A stretch of DNA of 32,366 bases, taken from positions 1 to 32,366 of the IMG/VR virus record IMGVR_UViG_3300013127_000846; one strand, written 5' to 3'. A program made the translations under genes and the position numbers. Origin of the DNA: a virus. A model generated the notes under the pieces. The model was not told the DNA's origin. It did not search any database and was given only the letters and a program-made list of their open reading frames with translations. This document shows, piece after piece, positions 1,427-18,091 of the stretch. The number at the start of each line of letters is the position of its first letter. The first letter of the stretch is position 1.

Positions 1427-1452
1427 CCCTCTACTTTCGTGGAGGGTTTTTT
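1427..1452 (+). terminator. Rho-independent terminator after the Thr/Pro-rich protein gene
   Basis: CCCTCTAC and GTGGAGGG form an 8-bp stem (one G-T pair) closed by a TTTC loop at 1427-1446 and followed by TTTTTT at 1447-1452. It separates the surface-protein unit from the glycosyltransferase genes. Confidence 0.9.
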
Positions 1453-1477
1453 ATTTTTAATACAAAATACATTTTTA

Positions 1478-2743
1478 ATGAAAATATTCGTACAAATTGC
1501 ATCTTACAGGGACCCACAACTTGTCCCCACAATTGAAAACATGATAGAAAATGCCAAGAAACCTAAAAATTTGGTTATTGGTGTTGCAAGACAGTATAGT
1601 GAATCTGATGGTTTCGATAATTTAGACAAGTATAGAGACGATAAAAGATTTAGAATCTTGGATATTCCGTACCAAGAAGCTAGAGGAGTTTGTTGGGCAA
1701 GACATCTGGTTCAACAACTTTATAGTGGAGAAACTTATACATTACAAATTGATTCTCATATGAGATTCGTTAAAGATTGGGATGATATCTTAATCAAAAT
1801 GATAAAGGGTCTACAGAAGGATGGGTATAAGAAGCCTCTACTTACGGGTTATGTACCCTCCTTTGACCCTGAAAATGAACCAGCAGGAAGAGCTCAAGAT
1901 GCTTGGAGAATGGTCTTTGATAGATTTATTCCTGAAGGTGCTGTGTTCTTCTTACCTGAAACAATACCAGGCTGGAGAGAGATGAGTAAACCAGTCACTG
2001 CAAGATTTTATTCAGCTCACTTCTGTTTTACATTAGGTGAATTCGCAAAAGAAGTTCAACACAATCCTGAATATTATTTCCACGGTGAAGAAATTTCAAT
2101 CGCAGCAAGAGCATATACTTGGGGATATGATTTATTTCACCCACACATTCCTGTTGTCTATCACGAATATACACGTAAAGGTAGAACAAAGCAGTGGGAT
2201 GACGATAAGACATGGGGAGAAAAAAACAAAGTATCACACCTTACTAACAGAAAACTTTTTGGTATGGACGGTGAAACGCAAGAAGGTCATGACGGACCAT
2301 TTGGTTTCGGAACTGTAAGAAGTTTAAAAGACTACGAAAAATATTCAGGTCTGTTATTTGAAAAAAGAGCGGTACAGAAATATACATTAGATAAAAAGTA
2401 TCCACCTAACCCATATAACTACGAGACAGAAGAAGAATGGAAAAATGATTTTGCAAAAGTTTTTAAACATTGTATCGATATTGGATACTCCCAAGTGCCT
2501 GAAAAAGATTATGACTTTTGGGTTGTAGCATTCCACGGACCAAATGATGATACAATCTACAGAAAGGATTCAGATAAAAATGAAATTGCGGGATATATGA
2601 GAGACCCTGATAAGTATTGTAAGATTTGGAGAGAATTCCAAACAGATGTTACTCCAACTTATTGGGTTGTTTGGCCACACTCAGAATCAAAGGGTTGGTG
2701 TGATAGAATCACAGGTCAACTAAATCATAATCACGTAAGTTAA
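1478..2743 (+). CDS. GT60-like N-acetylglucosaminyltransferase
   Basis: The product is 421 residues. An in-frame ATG at 1439 lies inside the upstream terminator, so the start is placed at 1478 (MKIFVQIASYRDPQLVPTI), which matches the usual N-terminus of the GlcNAc family (PF11397 type, CAZy GT60). Diagnostic features are IASYRDP near the start, GVCWARHL around residue 75, the metal-binding region LQIDSHMRF with D92-S-H94, and HGEEISIAARAYTWGYD further on. Known members transfer GlcNAc from UDP-GlcNAc to hydroxyproline or Thr of proteins; bacterial and phage members are uncharacterised. It is the first gene of an overlapping series, directly adjoining the next gene with no gap. Family assignment is firm; the acceptor is unknown. 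Confidence 0.85.
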   Translation: MKIFVQIASYRDPQLVPTIENMIENAKKPKNLVIGVARQYSESDGFDNLDKYRDDKRFRILDIPYQEARGVCWARHLVQQLYSGETYTLQIDSHMRFVKDWDDILIKMIKGLQKDGYKKPLLTGYVPSFDPENEPAGRAQDAWRMVFDRFIPEGAVFFLPETIPGWREMSKPVTARFYSAHFCFTLGEFAKEVQHNPEYYFHGEEISIAARAYTWGYDLFHPHIPVVYHEYTRKGRTKQWDDDKTWGEKNKVSHLTNRKLFGMDGETQEGHDGPFGFGTVRSLKDYEKYSGLLFEKRAVQKYTLDKKYPPNPYNYETEEEWKNDFAKVFKHCIDIGYSQVPEKDYDFWVVAFHGPNDDTIYRKDSDKNEIAGYMRDPDKYCKIWREFQTDVTPTYWVVWPHSESKGWCDRITGQLNHNHVS

Positions 2744-3376
2744 ATGATTAATTTAAAAGAATCTTTACCTGAGTTTAATATAAATTGCTCAGGGATTATC
2801 CACGTAGGTGGACACAAAGCTCAAGAATATCAAGAATATAAAGAAGCGGGATTGGCTCACCAAGTTTGGATTGAGGCCAATCCTCAATTTTTTTATGAAA
2901 TCATAAATGTAATAAAAGAGGATGAGAATTGCGTTGCTCTAAACTATGCTGTTTTTGACGAAGAAAAAGAAATCAATTTTGGACTGGCTAACAACGGAGC
3001 GTCATCATCAATTCTCCCTCTGAAAGAACATTTGAAATACTATCCAAACATTAGATATGATGGATATCGTCAAATGACCACAAAAAGATTAGATAAAATT
3101 ATTGAAGAAAACTCAATTGATTTATCCAAACATGATGGACTGGTTATGGATGTGCAGGGTGTTGAACTCAGGGTTCTGAAATCTTTAGGTTCACTTTTGA
3201 ATAACTTTAAATTTGTTCAATCTGAAGTTAATCTTGAAGAACTATATGAGGGTTGTTGTTTGATTGATGAACTAGATGAATATCTTAAAGGTTATGGTTT
3301 TGAAAGAAAAATAACCAAACTATGGGACGATGGTGCTGTAGGATGGGGAGATGCATTATATATTAAAAATGACTAA
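2744..3376 (+). CDS. FkbM-family SAM-dependent methyltransferase
   Basis: A 210-residue protein with the Rossmann pattern of FkbM methyltransferases (PF05050 type). GIIHVGGHKAQEYQEY at 17-32 is the SAM-binding loop region, IEANPQ at 43-48 holds the acidic ribose-binding residue, and LVMDVQGVELRVLKSLG at 133-149 is the highly typical FkbM signature. These enzymes usually O-methylate sugars or polyketides. Its ATG follows the preceding stop codon with no gap and its end overlaps the next start by eight bases (ATGACTAA), so it is translated as part of the sugar cassette. The likely role is methylation of a glycan built by the neighbouring transferases (inference). Confidence 0.85.
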   Translation: MINLKESLPEFNINCSGIIHVGGHKAQEYQEYKEAGLAHQVWIEANPQFFYEIINVIKEDENCVALNYAVFDEEKEINFGLANNGASSSILPLKEHLKYYPNIRYDGYRQMTTKRLDKIIEENSIDLSKHDGLVMDVQGVELRVLKSLGSLLNNFKFVQSEVNLEELYEGCCLIDELDEYLKGYGFERKITKLWDDGAVGWGDALYIKND

Positions 3377-4118
3377 TTTCTGTATATTATATTGGGATAT
3401 GGGATGTGAAACAAGAAGACAAAATGCTATTGTTTCATGGAAAGAACTTGTTAAGATGACCAAATATCTTAGAGATAAAGGTCTCAGGTTCAATGCATAT
3501 ATGTTTGAGTTTGGTAATAACTTTATTTTTAACGATTCAATCAAAATCACCGACCCACTCGAGTTTTATGAAAAAGCAAAGAAAAACAATTTGGCAATTA
3601 ACCACCCTGTTAATGATAATTGTGATTTCATTGCAATTATGGATTCTGATTTGTTTTTTAGTGAAGAACAATATGATATGGTTTACGACCATATCTTAGA
3701 ATTAGAAAATTCTAAGAACAAAATTTTCTTTACATATAATCTTATGGATATTCATGAAAATGAAAGAAAGGGAGTTTTAGATTTAGAAAAAATAGAATTG
3801 AATATAGAAAAGTTAGAAGAACTCAAACCAAAATATTCTTGGAGACATAGTTGGGGCGCTGGAGTTCTTGGTGGTATATTCATTGTCCCACGAAAAGAAA
3901 TCAGAGAAATGGGAGGATTTAATGAAAACTTTTTGACTTGGGGAGCTGAAGATGATGAGGCACACACAAGAATAAAAGGTTATGCAGAATGGCGTCCAAA
4001 AATGAATCAAGGTCCATATCATCTATGGCATCCTAAAAACGAAAAAGATGATAAGTATTTTATTCCTGTATATTCAGATGAATACTTCAAAGTAAACAAA
4101 GTAGAAAAACCAAGATGA
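3369..4118 (+). CDS. GT-A fold glycosyltransferase, galactosyltransferase (GT7 C-terminal)-like
   Basis: The product is 249 residues when started at the ATG at 3369, whose first codons overlap the previous stop. A longer start at 3351 would only add residues coded inside the upstream gene. The nucleotide-sugar site is DFIAIMDSDLFF with the DSD triad at 92-94. The C-terminal part GAGVLGGIFIVPRKEI...GGFNENF.TWGAEDDEA is the galactosyltransferase-type acceptor and catalytic region, corresponding to the W-G-x-E-D-D motif. Metal-dependent retaining or inverting chemistry cannot be told from sequence. Start and stop overlaps on both sides show co-translation with its neighbours. Donor and acceptor are unknown. 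Confidence 0.8.
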   Translation: MTNFCILYWDMGCETRRQNAIVSWKELVKMTKYLRDKGLRFNAYMFEFGNNFIFNDSIKITDPLEFYEKAKKNNLAINHPVNDNCDFIAIMDSDLFFSEEQYDMVYDHILELENSKNKIFFTYNLMDIHENERKGVLDLEKIELNIEKLEELKPKYSWRHSWGAGVLGGIFIVPRKEIREMGGFNENFLTWGAEDDEAHTRIKGYAEWRPKMNQGPYHLWHPKNEKDDKYFIPVYSDEYFKVNKVEKPR

Positions 4119-4861
4119 ATCAAAAACCAGTAACATTTGTTAGTTTTTGTGTAGACATAGATAGAGGTCTACTACCATTATCTAACACAATTCATAGACC
4201 TTTTGAACTATATAAAGTAGGGATGTATGAAAACATCGGAACAAATGTTCCTTTAGTTTTATACTCATCTGTAAATGATTTAAGAGTTCCTGCACACAGA
4301 AACGATTCAAATTTCAAGCATTATATATTAGAAAAAGATTTTTTAGAAATAGAATTTCCAAACTTCGATTTATATAGACAACATTATCCAACAACAAAAA
4401 GAGATGAGATTGCTAGTTCATTGTTTTATTATACCCCACTTGTGGTATTGAAAATGAAAAAAATGATGGAGGTTATTGAAGAAAACCCTTTTGATAGTGA
4501 TATGTTTTTTTGGATGGATTGTTTTTTCTTGAGAGGTATATTAGAACCTGATTTTTTATACAAAGAAGACGTGTATCTTAAAATGTATGAGAATGTTAAA
4601 TCTAAATTAGGAGATAAATTTGTACTTCTAGATTACGGGCCAAGACCTTTCGGTTTTTTTTGGGGAGGTAATAAAGAATCACTTAAAAAAATATATGAGC
4701 ATTATTTCAAAATATTTTTTGAGTCTTTACCAACCAAATTATTGACTGAGGAGTTAATATTCAAAATTATTAAAGAAAGGTATCCCGACATTGTGCATGT
4801 TATCCATGTAGAACACCCAGGTACATACAAATTAACTTGCCAAGATTTTTTAATAAAATGA
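4115..4861 (+). CDS. HtrL/YibB-like putative glycosyltransferase
   Basis: A 248-residue protein whose ATG overlaps the previous TGA (ATGA). The order of elements resembles HtrL/YibB (WlaTC) enzymes: an opening strand TFVSFCVDIDRGLLP with a conserved DIxR, a long middle with SSLFYYTPLVVLKMKKM, then DSDMFFWMDCFFLRG at 128-141 in the place of the W-I-D-x-G motif. PFGFFWGG follows where the family has a G-G-x-F-G-G segment. The match is weaker than in the two later HtrL-like genes here, and the final Gly-Gly pattern is less complete. Known relatives act in lipooligosaccharide or capsule synthesis. Substrate is not deducible. Confidence 0.6.
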   Translation: MNQKPVTFVSFCVDIDRGLLPLSNTIHRPFELYKVGMYENIGTNVPLVLYSSVNDLRVPAHRNDSNFKHYILEKDFLEIEFPNFDLYRQHYPTTKRDEIASSLFYYTPLVVLKMKKMMEVIEENPFDSDMFFWMDCFFLRGILEPDFLYKEDVYLKMYENVKSKLGDKFVLLDYGPRPFGFFWGGNKESLKKIYEHYFKIFFESLPTKLLTEELIFKIIKERYPDIVHVIHVEHPGTYKLTCQDFLIK

Positions 4862-5631
4862 TAGTTTATACAGATTTCAACAAAGCAAGATTTGGTAACC
4901 AATTATTTTTTGTTTCTGCAACCATAGGCACTGCACTAAAAAATGGCACCAATTACGGTTTTACTAGTCAAATGGGTCACGGTGGAATCAACTATCAACA
5001 AATATTTAAAAATAAATTACCTATAACTAATTTTATTCCGCAGAACAAACACTATCAGAATGGTTTTGGTTATGAGGAAATCCTAACACAAGACGCGGAA
5101 CTTATTGGTTATTTTCAATCTGAAAAATTTTTCAAGCACTGTGAAAGTTCAATAAGAAATCAATTTGAATTTGAACAGGATTATATTGATAATTGTTTAA
5201 CTCAATATCCAACTATCAAGGATTCCTTGACGGTTCATATTAGAAGAGGAGATTATGTTGGACAACCTAATCACCATCCAGTAGTACCTATATCATATTA
5301 TAAAAAAATATTAGAACAAATTTTTGATAACTATAACAAAATCTACGTATTCAGTGATGATGTAGAATGGCTAAAAGAAAATTTTGTTGGGGATAAATTT
5401 GTTTTCCCCCAATTTGATTCCAACGATGATTTAAATTGTTTTGTTCTAATGTCTTTGGCTAAAGATAATGTAATTGGTAATTCAACATACAGTTGGTGGG
5501 CGGCTTGGTTAAATAAAAACCCAAACAAAAAAGTGTTTACTCCACACTATAAACAATGGTTTGGTCCTTCGTATTCTAATTTAGATACGAAAGATTTAAT
5601 ACCTGAAACTTGGATACAAATAGAATATTAA
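4858..5631 (+). CDS. GT11 alpha-1,2-fucosyltransferase
   Basis: The product is 257 residues from the ATG at 4858, which forms an ATGA overlap with the previous stop; the longer frame beginning at 4837 reads upstream coding sequence and is not needed. The N-terminus ARFGNQLFF matches the G-N-Q-x-F entry motif. HIRRGDYVG from residue 127 is the GDP-fucose-binding motif shared by GT11 and GT37. GNSTYSWWAAWL at 207-218 is the second conserved motif of GT11. Such enzymes transfer fucose from GDP-fucose to galactose or similar sugars. The phage carries no GDP-fucose synthesis genes here, so the donor would come from the host. Family assignment is strong. Confidence 0.9.
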   Translation: MIVYTDFNKARFGNQLFFVSATIGTALKNGTNYGFTSQMGHGGINYQQIFKNKLPITNFIPQNKHYQNGFGYEEILTQDAELIGYFQSEKFFKHCESSIRNQFEFEQDYIDNCLTQYPTIKDSLTVHIRRGDYVGQPNHHPVVPISYYKKILEQIFDNYNKIYVFSDDVEWLKENFVGDKFVFPQFDSNDDLNCFVLMSLAKDNVIGNSTYSWWAAWLNKNPNKKVFTPHYKQWFGPSYSNLDTKDLIPETWIQIEY

Positions 5632-6269
5632 TGGTTCACAAGATTGTTTCTTTTTATCACAAACATCTTAACTATGAGATTGTAGAACTTCAAAAAAAAG
5701 TATTTGAAAAACTCGAAATTGAGTTGATTCAATATGAGTTTGAAGGTACTCATGGTGCCGCAATTAAAAAATTTTTAGATAATTCGGACTGGGATTTAAT
5801 TACACTATTTGATGTAGATTGCATTCCAACAGATAAAAAAGTTTTCGATACCATAAAAGAATTGGTAGATGATAACACCATGTATGGTAATGCACAAGTA
5901 TCAAATGCATACCCTTACGCGGCGCCAAGTTTTATATCCTTTACAAAAAATTTATATAAGACATCTCCCCACCAAAATTTTGAGGGGATGTATTATCCTA
6001 ACGAACATGGAATGCATGTTGAGGCAGATTGTGGTGAGGTTTTTGTGAAAGAAAATTTAAGAATTGGTAGAAAGCAAATTTTAAGTTATCCAATCAGTGT
6101 TGTGGACAAGAAATGGAGTTACGGTGGTAATAATGAATATCAATCGTTTGATTATGGAAACGGGACTTTATTTGATAACAAAACTTTTCATTGTTTTCAA
6201 ATTAGACTTCCCGAAGCACAATCTATTTTTATTAATTATGTAAAAGAACTTTTAGATGAAAAAAACTAA
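5631..6269 (+). CDS. Small GT-A type glycosyltransferase with DVD motif
   Basis: The product is 212 residues from ATG 5631, which shares one base with the previous TAA (TAATG). An upstream in-frame ATG at 5610 lies within the fucosyltransferase gene. DLITLFDVDCIPTD places a DVD metal-binding triad at 61-63 after a hydrophobic strand, as in GT-A enzymes. HVEADCGEVF in the middle resembles the acidic acceptor region. It is shorter than standard GT2 enzymes and lacks an obvious N-terminal nucleotide-binding strand, so it may be a minimal or specialised transferase. Context in the cassette supports a role in glycan building. No specific family is claimed. Confidence 0.65.
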   Translation: MVHKIVSFYHKHLNYEIVELQKKVFEKLEIELIQYEFEGTHGAAIKKFLDNSDWDLITLFDVDCIPTDKKVFDTIKELVDDNTMYGNAQVSNAYPYAAPSFISFTKNLYKTSPHQNFEGMYYPNEHGMHVEADCGEVFVKENLRIGRKQILSYPISVVDKKWSYGGNNEYQSFDYGNGTLFDNKTFHCFQIRLPEAQSIFINYVKELLDEKN

Positions 6270-7140
6270 ATTCATAACTTGTATATATACCGATTTATAT
6301 GGTTCTGAACTTGGTGGTAGACCAGGAAGATATAACCACTATAGATGGAGTTTAATATCACTTCTCAAGATGACTGATGCCGACTTTGTTTGTTATACAT
6401 CAGAGTCCGAATTACCATCATTGGAGGATTTTTTCTATAACCAAAATAATATATCAAAAGAACAGCTTAAGTTTTCTGTATATGATATTTGGAATTCAAA
6501 ATATAAAGATTTAATTAATTCACGAAAAGATATAGAGTTCACAAAAAAAGGGGATAGGTGTATTGAGATTCAATATTCTAAATTTGCGTGGTGGTACAAC
6601 GAAGACGGTTCTTATGAAAATTACTATTGGATAGATGCTGGTCTTTCTCACTGTGGTTTAATTCCTGTAAAATATTTAGACCAAATAAACTACATGAGAG
6701 GATTTTATGAAAGTCCATTATTCAACAATGAGTTTTTAAAAAATTTGATTGAATTTACAGGAGATAAGTTTTTTTTAATAGCAAAAGAAAACGAGAGAAA
6801 CTTTTGGTCACAGACAGTTTCACCAAAATGGTATACAAATTATGATAGGTCAATCCATATCATTGGGGGACTATTTGGTGGTAAGAAAGAAAAATGGCAA
6901 CATATTGTTGATTTATTTGAATCCTATATGAAAAACATTCTCACTGAGGATGTTGGACTTCCTCATGAGGAATTGATTATGAGTTTGATGCACGTAAATC
7001 ATAACGAATTGTTTGAGAGAAAACATTTTGATATTTGGTGGTGTCCCGACAATGCCCCTCAAGGAACTACACCTGAATTGTTTGAGCAGAATAAAAGTTT
7101 TTATAAAATATTAGAAGAACTAAATAACATTTATGAGTAA
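6256..7140 (+). CDS. HtrL/YibB-like glycosyltransferase
   Basis: A 294-residue protein overlapping the previous gene by 14 bases. It begins KFITCIYTDLYGSELGGRPGR, the TxIYtDLxG entry typical of the HtrL/YibB group. IQYSKFAWW at 105-113 and YYWIDAGLSHCG at 123-134 give the conserved Lys helix and the W-I-D-A-G motif. IIGGLFGGKKEKW around 201-213 is the Gly-rich segment, followed by GLPHEELIMSLM with the conserved E-E. This is a good full-length match. Characterised relatives include WlaTC/WlaTB-type enzymes in lipooligosaccharide loci, though biochemical proof is sparse. Sugar donor and acceptor are unknown. Confidence 0.75.
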   Translation: MKKTKFITCIYTDLYGSELGGRPGRYNHYRWSLISLLKMTDADFVCYTSESELPSLEDFFYNQNNISKEQLKFSVYDIWNSKYKDLINSRKDIEFTKKGDRCIEIQYSKFAWWYNEDGSYENYYWIDAGLSHCGLIPVKYLDQINYMRGFYESPLFNNEFLKNLIEFTGDKFFLIAKENERNFWSQTVSPKWYTNYDRSIHIIGGLFGGKKEKWQHIVDLFESYMKNILTEDVGLPHEELIMSLMHVNHNELFERKHFDIWWCPDNAPQGTTPELFEQNKSFYKILEELNNIYE

Positions 7141-13549: not shown

Positions 13550-15088
13550 TTATTCTATTTCGTGTAACAACGAATTGATATTAAAAACATATCTATCTTT
13601 ATCACTAACAGGTTCATTTTTGAAAATAAGTATCTTATTTGTTTTTGGATTATTGAATATGAACCAATCAACATTATATGGTTTAACATTTCCTGTATCC
13701 AATAACTCAATCAAATCATCTTTGATGATAATATTAGAAAAAGGTTTTACCTGTGCAGTATATTGAGTACCGTCTAAGTCAATTTTTAAATCAATTCCTT
13801 TGAACGCATCCATCTTAGCTCCGTGTGAACCAATTTTTTCAACTTTAGCTTTGCCTTCAAAATAATCTTCAATTTTTTTATTAGCGTTGTTCTCGGATTT
13901 TTGACCTCTATCCCAAAGTTTTTTCAAAACTTTGATGATGTTAATGAAGTCTTCGTTTTCTTTTGAGAATATTTCATTCTTGAAGTGGTCCAAAGCAACA
14001 ATTAATCTAGCGGTTTCTTTTGGGTTTCTTCTTTCTTGTTTCCAAAATTGGAATTTCTTTTCAGGTTTACCAATTTTATCTATTTGTTTATTTACAGCTT
14101 TGACTAAAAGACAAAAAGCGTTGAAGTTTGTGTTAAGGTTATTCAATATTGACCTTCCCTCAGGAGATTCGATACCATAGAAACCAGACATTTCCATTGT
14201 AGTTCCGTCAACCCAAAACTGTGAAAATTTCTTTCTTAGAACATGAGTAACACCGTCTTGGTATAATTTTTTAATCTTGTTGTTATTAATCAAGTCTCTA
14301 AAAAACACTACTTCTTTAGGGTCACAAAATTGAGGTTCTTTAGATTCCGTTAACAATTTTTGAAGTTGAGCGGTTTCCAAAAGTTTTGTTTCTGTTTTCA
14401 TTTGGTACATTTTTTCAACAAACTCCCAATTAACAACTTTCCAAAAATTAATAATATACTCATCCCTTTTGTTTCTGTATTTCAAATAGTAAGCATGTTC
14501 CCATAAGTCTAAACCAAGTAACGGAAACCCACCACCTTCAATAACATTCATCAGTGGGTTGTCTTGGTTTGGTGTGGACATAATTTTCAGAGTGTTCTTT
14601 GATGTTAGAACCAACCAAACCCAACCTGAACCAAATCGGTCCTTGGCCATTGTTTCAAATTTCTTTTTGAAAGTTGTAAAGGTTCCGTATTGTTTGGTTA
14701 TTTTTTTGTAAAGTTCACCCTCAAGTTTCTTAGGATTTGGGGTCAACATGTTCCAAAAAAGTGCGTGGTTGAACGCTCCCCCAGCATTGTTCCTTATAGT
14801 TTGGTCGTAACGACTTATATTCTTAATTATTTTTTCTAAGTCTAAGTCTCCGTGTTTTTTCTTGGCTAAGGCTGCGTTTAATTTATCCACATAACCTTTG
14901 TAATGTTTGTTGTAATGAAAATTCATCGTTTCTGCATCGATGAAAGATTTGAGGGCTGAATAAGAATAAGGTAATTTTTCTATTCCAATTTTTTTCATTT
15001 CGTTAATCAACACCTCTTTCTCTTCTTGAATGTGGTTTTCGAGTATTTGTTTTTCGAGTTGTTGAATTTTTTCTTCAATTTTCTTCAT
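13550..15088 (-). CDS. Mn/Fe superoxide dismutase fused to a C-terminal PD-(D/E)XK-like region
   Basis: A 512-residue protein. After a charged helix (1-33), residues 38-228 are a full Mn/Fe superoxide dismutase: LPYSYSALKSFI, metal ligands H58 (NFHYNKHY), H108 (GAFNHALFW), D194 and H198 (GLDLWEHAYYLKYRNKR), and second-shell Y66 and Q175 (TPNQDNPL). NAGG at 101-104 and NQD favour the manganese or cambialistic type. Free SODs are about 200 residues, so roughly 280 are added. Residues 230-410 are mostly helical and unrecognised. Residues 400-512 contain FKGIDLKIDLDG then YTAQVKPF, with D433 and Q446-x-K448 spaced as in Mrr-type PD-(D/E)XK nucleases. The SOD call is secure; the nuclease fold is an inference. 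No signal peptide, so it acts in the cytoplasm or in the virion. Confidence 0.9.
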   Translation of the reverse strand: MKKIEEKIQQLEKQILENHIQEEKEVLINEMKKIGIEKLPYSYSALKSFIDAETMNFHYNKHYKGYVDKLNAALAKKKHGDLDLEKIIKNISRYDQTIRNNAGGAFNHALFWNMLTPNPKKLEGELYKKITKQYGTFTTFKKKFETMAKDRFGSGWVWLVLTSKNTLKIMSTPNQDNPLMNVIEGGGFPLLGLDLWEHAYYLKYRNKRDEYIINFWKVVNWEFVEKMYQMKTETKLLETAQLQKLLTESKEPQFCDPKEVVFFRDLINNNKIKKLYQDGVTHVLRKKFSQFWVDGTTMEMSGFYGIESPEGRSILNNLNTNFNAFCLLVKAVNKQIDKIGKPEKKFQFWKQERRNPKETARLIVALDHFKNEIFSKENEDFINIIKVLKKLWDRGQKSENNANKKIEDYFEGKAKVEKIGSHGAKMDAFKGIDLKIDLDGTQYTAQVKPFSNIIIKDDLIELLDTGNVKPYNVDWFIFNNPKTNKILIFKNEPVSDKDRYVFNINSLLHEIE

Positions 15089-15140: not shown

Positions 15141-15356
15141 TCAATTTTGGATTTTTTCATAGATATCACTATTTGTTGGAAGGGCTAATGTTTTGTGATG
15201 ATATATAATTTTACCGTCATCTGAGAATCCAGTGATTGTTATTGTTTCACCATAAGACACATTGGTTAATAATTTGTTTCTCAATTTTTCAGAAACGATT
15301 TTAATCGTATCACCGACTTTCAATTCTATGTTATTGTGATTGGTGACTCTATCCAT
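15141..15356 (-). CDS. Small protein of unknown function, SH3-like composition
   Basis: A 71-residue protein starting eight bases after the SNF2 gene stop, probably in the same transcript. LKVGDTIKIVSEKL followed by YGETITITGFSDDGKIIYHH suggests a small five-stranded barrel such as an SH3-like or KOW-like fold. There are no catalytic motifs, Cys residues or membrane segments. It could be a nucleic-acid or protein-binding partner of the helicase, judged only by position. I do not recognise the family. Confidence 0.65.
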   Translation of the reverse strand: MDRVTNHNNIELKVGDTIKIVSEKLRNKLLTNVSYGETITITGFSDDGKIIYHHKTLALPTNSDIYEKIQN

Positions 15357-15364
15357 CGATTTAA

Positions 15365-17125
15365 TTAAGGTCTCAATTCATTGATTTTTTTGAGGATTTC
15401 TTCTGCAACATCTCCACCCCCAAGGTTATCTCCCATAACAGTTGCAATTACTTGTTTTTTGTTGTTAAGGATATCATAAATAACCCCTTCGATTGTATTT
15501 TCAAAAATTGGATAATATACTAATACGTTGTTCTTTTGACCAAATCTATATGCTCTATCTTCTGCTTGTGAGTGGTCTGACGGTAAAAATGAAAGGTCAT
15601 TCATTATAACCGCTTCTGCGGCTGTAAGGGTTAGACCAACACCCGCTGCTTTTATGTTACCTACAAAAACTTTTATCTTTTCGTTTTCTTGGAATTGGTC
15701 AACACTAAATTGTCTATCTTGTTTAGTCATAGACCCATCGACCTTGACTGCGGATTTACCAAAATGTTCAACAATTTGATTTAGAGAATCTGTGAAATTA
15801 CAAAATATGATAACCTTCTTATCTTGTTCTAAAATATTCTCAGCAAGTTCAATTGTTTGAGATATTTTTTCATTGGCTATGACTTGTCTAACTTTTGTGA
15901 GTTTAGTAAACTGAACGGTTAGTGATTTCGATTCGTCAGGATTTTTATCATACCAATTATAATATTCACCCATTAATTCTTCATAGTCTTTGGACTTGAG
16001 TCTAAGATATACAGGGGTAATTATTTTATCAGGTAAGTCTAAAACGTCTTCTTTTAATCTTCTCGTTATAGTATTTGAAGTTCTTTCTCTAAGTTCCTCC
16101 AAATTAGAAGAACCCATGACGTTCCAAACTTTTCTTGCACCTACTTTGAATTGGTATCCACTACAATATCTAATAACATAGGCCATCCAATTTTTTGCTA
16201 CGGGAGAATCAACAAGACTTAGTAGATTATAATAGTCTATTGGACGAGAGGTCATTGGAGTACCAGTCAGAAGCCAAAGTCTATCAACTTTTTTAACAAT
16301 ATCGTTGATTAGTTTTGTTCTTTGGGCTTGAGCATTTTTGATATAGTGTGCTTCATCAACGACCACCAAATCAAAATTGGAAGCCAAAATTTGAGAATCA
16401 TCTTTCTTTTTAGAGTCATGGAAATTTTTTAATATGTCGTAGTTTATTATTACAAAATCGTGTTCAGTACTAAAGTGTTTTCCTTCAGCAATATATATTG
16501 TTTTGTCTGAGTAGTTTTCAATCTCTCTTTTCCAATTTATCTTAAGAGTTGCGGGACAAATGATTAGAACTTTTTTTGTACCTGATTCAAGAGCTGCGAT
16601 AATAGTGGATGTGGTTTTACCTAAACCCATATCATCAGCCAAGATGTATTTTTTATTTTCTACAAGTTTTTGTATTGCTTCTTTTTGATGGGCTAGCGGT
16701 GGTCTCTTAGAATACTTGTCGTAATTAATTACAACGTCTTTTACAGTGTTGTCTTTTATAATCGAAGCTTTGGGTAACCAAAAATCATGGAGTTGTTCAG
16801 TTTCCCAAACTCTCCCCCAAATGTGATATGCTTTGTCTTTCTCCGCTAAAAGTTTTTCAACCCAAACTCTCTGTGGTACTTGGGTGTATAATTTGTCGTC
16901 AGCTAATTTTTGTGCAAAATAAGCGTCAAGAATTACCCATTTTTTTGCAACCTTTGGTTGTTTGTCGTGGTTATTTATTATGTACTCTGATTGACTTCTT
17001 GTAGGATAAAATTTTTTATTGATTTGGGACTTACGTTTTAGTTCCAATATGTAGTTGTTAGCACCCTCATAATTTTCAAGAAGTGAAATAGCTTTTGACT
17101 CTAATGATATTTCTGTTGAACTCAT
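15365..17125 (-). CDS. SNF2-family DNA helicase/translocase
   Basis: A 586-residue protein with a complete superfamily 2 motor of the SNF2/SMARCAL1 branch. Motifs are the Q-type LAHQKEAI at 144-151, Walker A DDMGLGKT at 164-171, DEAH at 257-260, LTGTP at 286-290, GVGLTLTAAEAVIM near 495-508 and QAEDRAYRFGQ at 520-530. Residues 1-140 form a variable N-terminal domain ending in a W-rich stretch (HIWGRVWETEQLHDFW). Such ATPases move on double-stranded or branched DNA, and annealing helicases restart forks. In this phage it could replace the recombination and fork-reversal role of T4 UvsW. Its ATG overlaps the SET gene stop, so the two are co-translated. Confidence 0.9.
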   Translation of the reverse strand: MSSTEISLESKAISLLENYEGANNYILELKRKSQINKKFYPTRSQSEYIINNHDKQPKVAKKWVILDAYFAQKLADDKLYTQVPQRVWVEKLLAEKDKAYHIWGRVWETEQLHDFWLPKASIIKDNTVKDVVINYDKYSKRPPLAHQKEAIQKLVENKKYILADDMGLGKTTSTIIAALESGTKKVLIICPATLKINWKREIENYSDKTIYIAEGKHFSTEHDFVIINYDILKNFHDSKKKDDSQILASNFDLVVVDEAHYIKNAQAQRTKLINDIVKKVDRLWLLTGTPMTSRPIDYYNLLSLVDSPVAKNWMAYVIRYCSGYQFKVGARKVWNVMGSSNLEELRERTSNTITRRLKEDVLDLPDKIITPVYLRLKSKDYEELMGEYYNWYDKNPDESKSLTVQFTKLTKVRQVIANEKISQTIELAENILEQDKKVIIFCNFTDSLNQIVEHFGKSAVKVDGSMTKQDRQFSVDQFQENEKIKVFVGNIKAAGVGLTLTAAEAVIMNDLSFLPSDHSQAEDRAYRFGQKNNVLVYYPIFENTIEGVIYDILNNKKQVIATVMGDNLGGGDVAEEILKKINELRP

Positions 17126-17517
17126 TTTACATTAACATGTGTTCTTCCATCCGCCCAATAACTTTCATCACCATAACTGATGAAAATCTCTTCCCCTTTT
17201 TTGATTGGTTTTGTTGAAAAGAAAATAAATGTTTTGTTCTCAACATCGTTTGTCCAACTTGCGTTTGGAGTGTTTGAATGGTTATATAATGAACCGTAAC
17301 CTAAAGCAATTACAAAGTTTTCCCAACTTTCGCTTCTTGGCCATTCGAAAGCGTAATCTATAAGGGTATAGTTTATCTCTCCCCTTTTGGCTGGTAGAAA
17401 TAATATAGGACAAATCTCAATTACTTCGTCTTTATCAATATCTTGTAATGCGAATACCCCAAGACCGTGTATGGGACTTTCTTTGAATTCTACCTTGTGT
17501 TTCTTTTTAGTTTCCAT
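17122..17517 (-). CDS. SET-domain protein lysine methyltransferase
   Basis: A 131-residue protein that is almost only a SET domain. SPIHGLGVFALQDIDKDEVI at 14-33 is the SAM-binding entry, LYNHSNTPNASW at 77-88 carries the N-H-S-x-x-P-N pseudoknot motif, and KKGEEIFISYGDESYW at 106-121 has the E-E/I-x-x-x-Y-G segment with the probable catalytic Y115. A cysteine-rich post-SET zinc site is absent, as in short viral and bacterial SET proteins such as chlorovirus vSET (119 residues). It should methylate lysines of a protein; the target is unknown. Its stop overlaps the SNF2 helicase start (four bases), implying joint expression. Confidence 0.9.
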   Translation of the reverse strand: METKKKHKVEFKESPIHGLGVFALQDIDKDEVIEICPILFLPAKRGEINYTLIDYAFEWPRSESWENFVIALGYGSLYNHSNTPNASWTNDVENKTFIFFSTKPIKKGEEIFISYGDESYWADGRTHVNVK

Positions 17518-17524
17518 TTGGAAT

Positions 17525-17555
17525 AAAATATAATTATTAATTAGGTATTTATCAA
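17525..17555 (-). promoter_or_regulatory. Possible Bacteroidota-type host promoter for the SET-SNF2 unit
   Basis: On the minus strand TTG (17555-17553) is followed after 20 bases by TATATTTT (17532-17525), one base off the Bacteroidota -7 consensus TAnnTTTG with its -33 TTG. This unit lacks the TATTTATA octamer, so host polymerase may express it early. Weak sites like this occur by chance in AT-rich DNA. Confidence 0.3.
17546..17553 (+). promoter_or_regulatory. Promoter-like TATTTATC before the gp14-like gene
   Basis: TATTTATC followed by AATAAGAATAAATC lies 22 bases before ATG 17576. The same extended sequence TATTTATCAATAA occurs before the sheath gene at 19371. Confidence 0.55.
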
Positions 17556-17575
17556 TAAGAATAAATCATTTCAGA

Positions 17576-18091
17576 ATGGCAGAGAAATTAGTTCCAATAA
17601 CAAGGCTTGGTAAATTTTTTGGTGGTGAAGATTATGCCTTAGACATAGGTATGGGTGAAGAATGGTTGATTGGTGATATGAATTTCACAGTAATTTTGTA
17701 TAGAATAGACAGATATAAAACAAAAACTGATGATGTCTATGGGGAGGTTCTTGAAGATGGTATTCAATTTATGGCTCCTGTAGAATTAAAAGGATATGTG
17801 CAAGTTATGGCCCCGAGTAATAAATTCTTAGGAAATTCAAGGGTTGAACAACAAGAACCAGGTAACATGAGATTTAGTATATATCAAAAAACTTTGGAAG
17901 ATTTAGGTGTTGATATTTTCATGGGGGACTATTTTGGTTACTATGAAAGTGAGGATAGAGTTAGATATTATGTTGTAAATGACGATGGTTATGTTAAGTC
18001 AGACAATAAACATACTTACGGTGGTTACAAACCTTTTTATAGAACTATTGTCGCCACTTATGTTAGTGAAAATGAATTCAACGGAATATAA
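17576..18091 (+). CDS. Neck protein, T4 gp14-like
   Basis: A 171-residue protein opening the plus-strand tail operon. DDVYGEVLEDGIQFMAPVELKG at about 51-72 matches the D-x-x-Y-G-E region of cyanophage gp14 proteins. It is followed by a beta-rich C-terminal part with GDYFGYY and RVRYYVV, where gp14 relatives have P-x-x-G-D followed by a strand. T4 gp14 is 256 residues, so this one is shorter. It directly precedes a gp15-like gene with one base between stop and the next ATG, matching the T4 order 14-15. The assignment is supported mostly by gene order and weak pattern similarity. Confidence 0.5.
   Translation: MAEKLVPITRLGKFFGGEDYALDIGMGEEWLIGDMNFTVILYRIDRYKTKTDDVYGEVLEDGIQFMAPVELKGYVQVMAPSNKFLGNSRVEQQEPGNMRFSIYQKTLEDLGVDIFMGDYFGYYESEDRVRYYVVNDDGYVKSDNKHTYGGYKPFYRTIVATYVSENEFNGI

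Follow-up and report, generated by a model that had tools for sequence, protein, structure and literature searches.

The SET-domain gene and the SNF2-type translocase gene that overlap in the window (the whole stretch of viral DNA that was analysed, 32,366 nucleotides, IMG/VR record IMGVR_UViG_3300013127_000846) are likely two independent genes, the SNF2 gene forming part of the phage core and the SET gene being an exchangeable accessory in the slot beside it. The position of the SNF2 gene is fixed in this uncultured phage family, and the SET gene is optional. Both are probably real and separate enzymes, and a joint chromatin-like machine is unlikely. What is new is a widespread, exchangeable family of phage SET proteins, with relatives of the window SET in at least 280 IMG/VR stretches.

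Table 1. Features around the SET–SNF2 pair in the window
Feature	Position	Strand	Remarks
Superoxide dismutase (SOD), Fe/Mn	13550..15088	-	512 aa, extra C-terminal domain; Sod_Fe_C 2.4e-39, Sod_Fe_N 1.5e-22
71-aa ORF	15141..15356	-	3' of SNF2; local to the window's subclade; no convincing family match
SNF2 gene	15365..17125	-	586 aa, SNF2/SWI2-type superfamily-2 translocase; no family match in the first ~140 aa
Overlap of SET stop and SNF2 start	17122..17125	-	ATGA, 4 bp; SET first in the transcript
SET gene	17122..17517	-	131 aa, minimal SET-domain protein, predicted vSET-like protein lysine methyltransferase
Slot, intergenic	17518..17575		between the divergent 171-aa ORF (+) and SET (-); SET inserted here
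171-aa ORF	17576..18091	+	far side of the slot; in nearly all family loci; no family match

The SET gene encodes a full-length domain, with a Pfam SET match (3.1e-18) over residues 18–116 that covers profile positions 1–105 of 105. The protein carries G18xG20, N79-H-S-N-T-P-N85 and a catalytic-type tyrosine, Y115; we take GxG, NHSxxPN and the catalytic tyrosine to be the motif list for SET-domain protein lysine methyltransferases. Across 80 distinct ORFs, N79 and Y115 are kept in all 80 and H80 in 79. The minimal 131-residue SET protein of the original prediction, with its NHSxxPN motif and tyrosine, stands intact. An AlphaFold2 model (mean pLDDT 84.5, C-terminal end poorly predicted) has the SET fold. 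The best Foldseek match in the PDB is vSET (3kma, E 1.6e-9, 37% identity in the alignment; TM 0.67 by query and 0.83 by target), followed by PFL0690c (4rz0) and Schizosaccharomyces pombe Set7 (5h6z). A phmmer search agrees with this ranking (Set7 9.5e-17, vSET 6e-16). The window SET is thus inferred to be a free-standing vSET-like protein lysine methyltransferase, with activity predicted from the fold and the catalytic residues.

The likeness to vSET (PBCV-1 A612L; 1n3j, 3kma), the H3K27 methyltransferase of a chlorella virus, extends to size and design. Both are minimal stand-alone SET proteins (119 aa in vSET), and they have in common a YGD..YW end of the domain. The settings differ, as vSET acts in a eukaryotic host with histones, while the window SET lies on a tailed-phage contig, and among 11 related phage records neither an HU gene nor a histone-fold gene was found in any. 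The next best matches by both sequence and fold, Set7 and the Plasmodium protein PFL0690c, are by their PDB titles eukaryotic histone methyltransferases (PFL0690c a putative one), unlike the phage SET. Among phage records the closest SET match, at 49% identity, is in a 735-kb uncultured phage, and the nearest cellular matches come from Alphaproteobacteria and Bacteroidota. One of the top cellular matches (L184) is on a contig that a bacterial genome collection labels as Fluviicola and that looks like a binned phage contig.

The neighbouring gene is a complete predicted SNF2-type translocase whose family assignment is secure. An ATPase lobe (SNF2-rel_dom, 8.7e-29) and a helicase C lobe (Helicase_C, 1.9e-18) are both present, and the sequence reads Walker A (DDMGLGKT), DEAH and LTGTP stretches; Walker A and DEAH are invariant across 38 rows. 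The best PHROG family is the DNA helicase phrog_62 (2.2e-114, residues 135–569), and the best PDB sequence match is the Sulfolobus Snf2/Rad54 core (1z63, 8.6e-34). The structural model has a mean pLDDT of only 65 and fold matches of low TM (0.26–0.35), and therefore only the motor assignment is used here. The SNF2 protein was also considered as a component of anti-phage defence (Zorya, DISARM, Dpd) and rejected in that role; hits to the ZorD, DpdE and DrmD models fall far under the NCBI cut-offs and are explained by the shared motor. Low dN/dS values among eight close phages, with medians of ~0.05 for SET (28 pairs, two with saturated dS) and ~0.02 for SNF2 (21 pairs), suggest that both genes are functional, although the values are rough with dS near saturation. 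By these codon comparisons, the catalytic residues of SET are under purifying selection and the pair is not a product of chance.

The predicted four-base overlap of SET with a complete SNF2 gene is confirmed in the window. Of 56 distinct junctions that could be measured, 12 have the exact overlap, chiefly in the window's relatives and subclade (62 rows were compared, six of them unmeasurable for want of a usable start motif). Nearly all of the measured junctions (52/56) fall between -4 and +5 nt, and the order and closeness of the two genes are kept in 10 close relatives.

It seems probable that the SNF2 protein is a stand-in for the T4 helicase UvsW. The SNF2 gene is single-copy in 9 of 11 records, and the other two are without SNF2. 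T4 UvsW is a member of phrog_16 (7.1e-124). In five SNF2 records the best phrog_16 match is the SNF2 ORF itself, at ~1e-18 to 1e-21, so that these records lack a strong UvsW-like helicase, whereas two records with only SET have strong phrog_16 matches (6.7e-70 and 1.2e-67). One of these proteins, in the 308-kb record G011, shares 29% identity with T4 UvsW (E 1e-55). SNF2 and the UvsW-type helicase are thus mutually exclusive in these seven records, some of which are close relatives of each other, and this is the pattern on which the probable substitution rests. The same job is proposed for the two proteins, but by sequence the window protein is of SNF2 type and not UvsW, matching it at only E 0.002 over 83 residues and having phrog_62 rather than phrog_16 as its best family. 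The exclusion agrees with passages of a survey of jumbo phages in which Snf2/Swi2 helicases are proposed as replacements of UvsW (PMC7824862); the term "SET domain" does not occur in the main text of that survey.

Presence and absence of the two genes were compared from both sides. The best 80 of 589 SNF2 loci, with some contigs represented by near-copies, comprise 47 with SET immediately upstream and 33 without it. Of the SET-less loci, 29 have neighbouring ORFs that overlap or lie no more than 41 bp apart, and the other four have an opposite-strand ORF in the slot. Around the SNF2 of another record, from a different SNF2 clade, SET is upstream in seven and absent in 73 of the best 80 of 598 loci. 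Taken from the SET side, the best 80 of 280 loci have SNF2 adjoining in 64, ~7 kb away in one and nowhere in the examined stretch in 15, one of which (L079) ends at SET. Sixteen records with an unlinked SET encode the same SNF2 family elsewhere in five cases and not in 11 (mostly fragments). No SNF2-domain match was found in the SET-bearing 735-kb LR756501 and 308-kb G011, and a 295-kb record has both genes more than 200 kb apart. Conversely, SET is found nowhere in 15 records (largest 317 kb) with SNF2 but no adjacent SET; the completeness of the records is not given, and a SET missing from a fragment is not the same as one missing from the virus. Co-occurrence in related phages, whose absence would have counted against the original prediction, is therefore real in these counts and not obligate. 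An obligate pairing of SET and SNF2 acting on a histone-like substrate, as in a eukaryote-like chromatin remodelling module, was not found.

The histories of the two proteins also differ. On a tree of 78 distinct SNF2 proteins, 53 with SET, the SET label changes 10 times, at least eight of them on supported branches; as the tree pools loci retrieved with either protein, SET is over-represented in it. Distances for 55 distinct SET–SNF2 pairs are almost uncorrelated (Mantel rho 0.095), a tiny value that is nevertheless above most permutations (42 of 999 as high). Near-identical SNF2 proteins are found with SETs of different clades. For example, contigs L084 and L165 have SNF2 proteins that are 97% identical and SETs that are 41% identical, and for L084 and L087 the figures are 86% for SNF2 and 91% for SET. 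Three phages (L028, L045 and L073/L108) have tandem SETs before SNF2, and each pair is of different SET clades. The pattern looks like cassette exchange between conserved flanks and not like the co-evolution of partners. Of the original prediction, tight adjacency over much of the family is supported, and the idea that coupling reflects a joint function is weakened by a SET gene that is optional, found unlinked and nearly uncorrelated with its neighbor.

SET is also found in very different contexts. The SET tree has 18 truly unlinked rows (L001, which is the window in reverse, and L079 are excluded). A second SET clade with moderate support (81/84) was not seen adjoining SNF2. Most of it lies in glycan-type clusters that combine glycosyltransferases, nucleotide-sugar epimerases and hexapeptide transferases with FkbM-type methyltransferases and cytidylyltransferases, close to proteins of structural or secreted type; three members (L017, L058, L094) have other neighbors. 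These neighbors come from a pooled scan of 66 proteins from 10 loci, with the roles at each locus read from the sequences. The neighbors of unlinked SETs also include virion structural (phrog_8510), lectin-fold and CHU_C/PKD families. The presence of CHU_C (type IX secretion) and PKD among them suggests Bacteroidota hosts for some of the phage SETs. Other SETs adjoin PrkA, PHP or exonuclease genes. In L013 and L015 (~4026–6417) the SET frame is just 3' of a PrkA-type serine kinase gene, the PrkA match being tested for L013. Very large secreted-type proteins directly follow SET in L067 (8422–13092) and L066 (810–5480). A scan of bacterial genomes gave 40 SET loci, none with an SNF2 match in the flank examined.

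In the preferred explanation, SET and SNF2 would function independently from a common promoter and transcript. SNF2 would be the core helicase/translocase of the phage family, probably serving recombination-dependent replication and fork remodelling. SET would be an accessory cassette, gained, lost and exchanged for distantly related SETs at the slot that separates the 171-aa gene from SNF2; in some relatives it sits in glycan-modification clusters instead. The tight junctions would give SET the expression of SNF2 by read-through or coupling and would not indicate a shared mechanism. SET probably acts on a host or virion protein, a different one from one phage–host pair to another, which would explain why SET is optional and swapped. 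One counterpoint is that SET returns to the same slot in many lineages (64/80), more than would be expected of a random accessory gene. Recombination between the conserved flanks would explain this return, and selection for joint SET–SNF2 expression may be an alternative cause.

That SET has come back to this slot again and again, with tight junctions in many lineages, is also what would be expected of a single module in which SET methylates proteins bound to DNA, whether of the host nucleoid or of the phage, and SNF2 removes or slides those proteins. In eukaryotes both families act on chromatin. However, either gene is often found alone, the two have not co-diversified, SET is far from SNF2 in the 295-kb record, and the loci of the bacterial scan have SET with no SNF2 match in the flank. 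A joint machine is quite improbable on this evidence and, given the presence/absence and swapping patterns, was set aside as the leading view. A phage-encoded histone-fold protein or HU is an unlikely substrate, since the 11 related records have neither; host HU is a possible one.

For SET as an independent enzyme, the choice of substrate lies between host and virion. Methylation of a host factor (a translation, nucleoid or defence protein) for host takeover or counter-defence fits the patchy and swappable distribution of SET, the Bacteroidota SETs among its nearest cellular relatives and the Bacteroidota hosts indicated by the CHU_C neighbors, but SET has no match to defence-system models. 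This can be put forward tentatively. It is rather unlikely that SET is instead one more surface-modifying enzyme, acting on virion proteins (tail, adhesin, neck). The window slot does border the 171-aa and 384-aa ORFs and the tail sheath, and unlinked SETs are found in glycan clusters next to tail-fibre-like, phrog_8510 structural, lectin-fold and CHU_C/PKD genes, yet structural genes adjoin many phage genes by chance. The top lysine columns of SNF2, the 171-aa and 384-aa proteins, the sheath, SOD and Ad2-like proteins were examined for a difference between loci with and without SET, arginine serving as the control. Those of the 384-aa protein are enriched with SET (0.66 versus 0.08), but the enrichment is lost in an independent-pairs test (8 pairs, median p 0.375), and for arginine a difference as large as 0.65 arises in another gene. 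None of four genes compared by independent pairs is significant among the rows listed, leaving the 384-aa protein as the one weak lead. A broader proposal, still doubtful, is that tailed phages of Bacteroidota keep an exchangeable set of vSET-like enzymes at a fixed slot to methylate host nucleoid or defence proteins or their own adhesins, as a viral lysine-methylation system unrelated to histones.

A small SET protein is also encoded by Stenotrophomonas phage vB_SmaM_Ps15 (ORF62, 34.6% identity to the window SET), which differs in its length (101 aa), in having no SNF2 beside it and in its long branch in the SET tree. In passages of its report this protein is placed among those of unknown function (PMC9025141). 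Listings and passages of the open PMC literature hold nothing on phage SET enzymes beyond that annotation. Two reviews of bacterial SET proteins and methyltransferases (PMC3980110, PMC10117894) have no main-text word starting with "phage", a count that does not catch "bacteriophage". If active, the phage SETs would put lysine methylation among the general tools of phages and would offer small histone-free model enzymes. They also advise caution in inferring function from translational overlap, as the partner is swapped across relatives while the motor stays.

The slot carries a block, TTGATAAATAC, on the SET strand that is common to all 10 relatives listed, and a promoter search ahead of the SET–SNF2 unit revealed only this shared AT-rich block. 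On the far side, the divergent 171-aa and then 384-aa ORFs are followed by the gene of a 1074-aa tail sheath. On the near side, the 71-aa ORF had been put forward as a possible third member of the unit. It is present in just eight of 54 SET-adjacent loci and in none of 24 SET-less ones, and it was rejected as a general partner of the pair. A separate element, TATTTATA, occurs seven times in the window, at 326, 9232, 13536 (-), 15110 (-), 23562, 25063 and 26972. Shuffled sequences contain a mean of 3.6 copies, nine of 100 reaching seven. In the window all seven copies lie in sense ahead of an ORF, no more than 75 nt from its start (chance ~3e-11 for position alone), and the element looks like a candidate promoter of the phage. 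As originally noted, the SET–SNF2 unit is without it, none of the seven copies preceding SET, SNF2 or the 71-aa ORF.

The SOD gene, which is preceded by TATTTATA, follows SNF2 as the next conserved gene in most loci of the family. The stretches that presumably hold the usual metal ligands are present. The C-terminal domain of ~280 aa has a nuclease-like GID..AQVK stretch and no match among PDB sequences (best E 0.55). In the 735-kb phage LR756501 a relative of this part is encoded next to SET (L017, 7140–7889, minus strand). The window SNF2, sheath and PolB are all less than 60% identical to those of phage records, and no named phage is closely related. The left third of the window contains a glycan cluster with a glycosyltransferase (phrog_24687, 1439–2743) and a methyltransferase (phrog_8156, 2744–3376). 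This glycan-type cluster (1439–3376 and neighbors) sits beyond the DNA polymerase gene.
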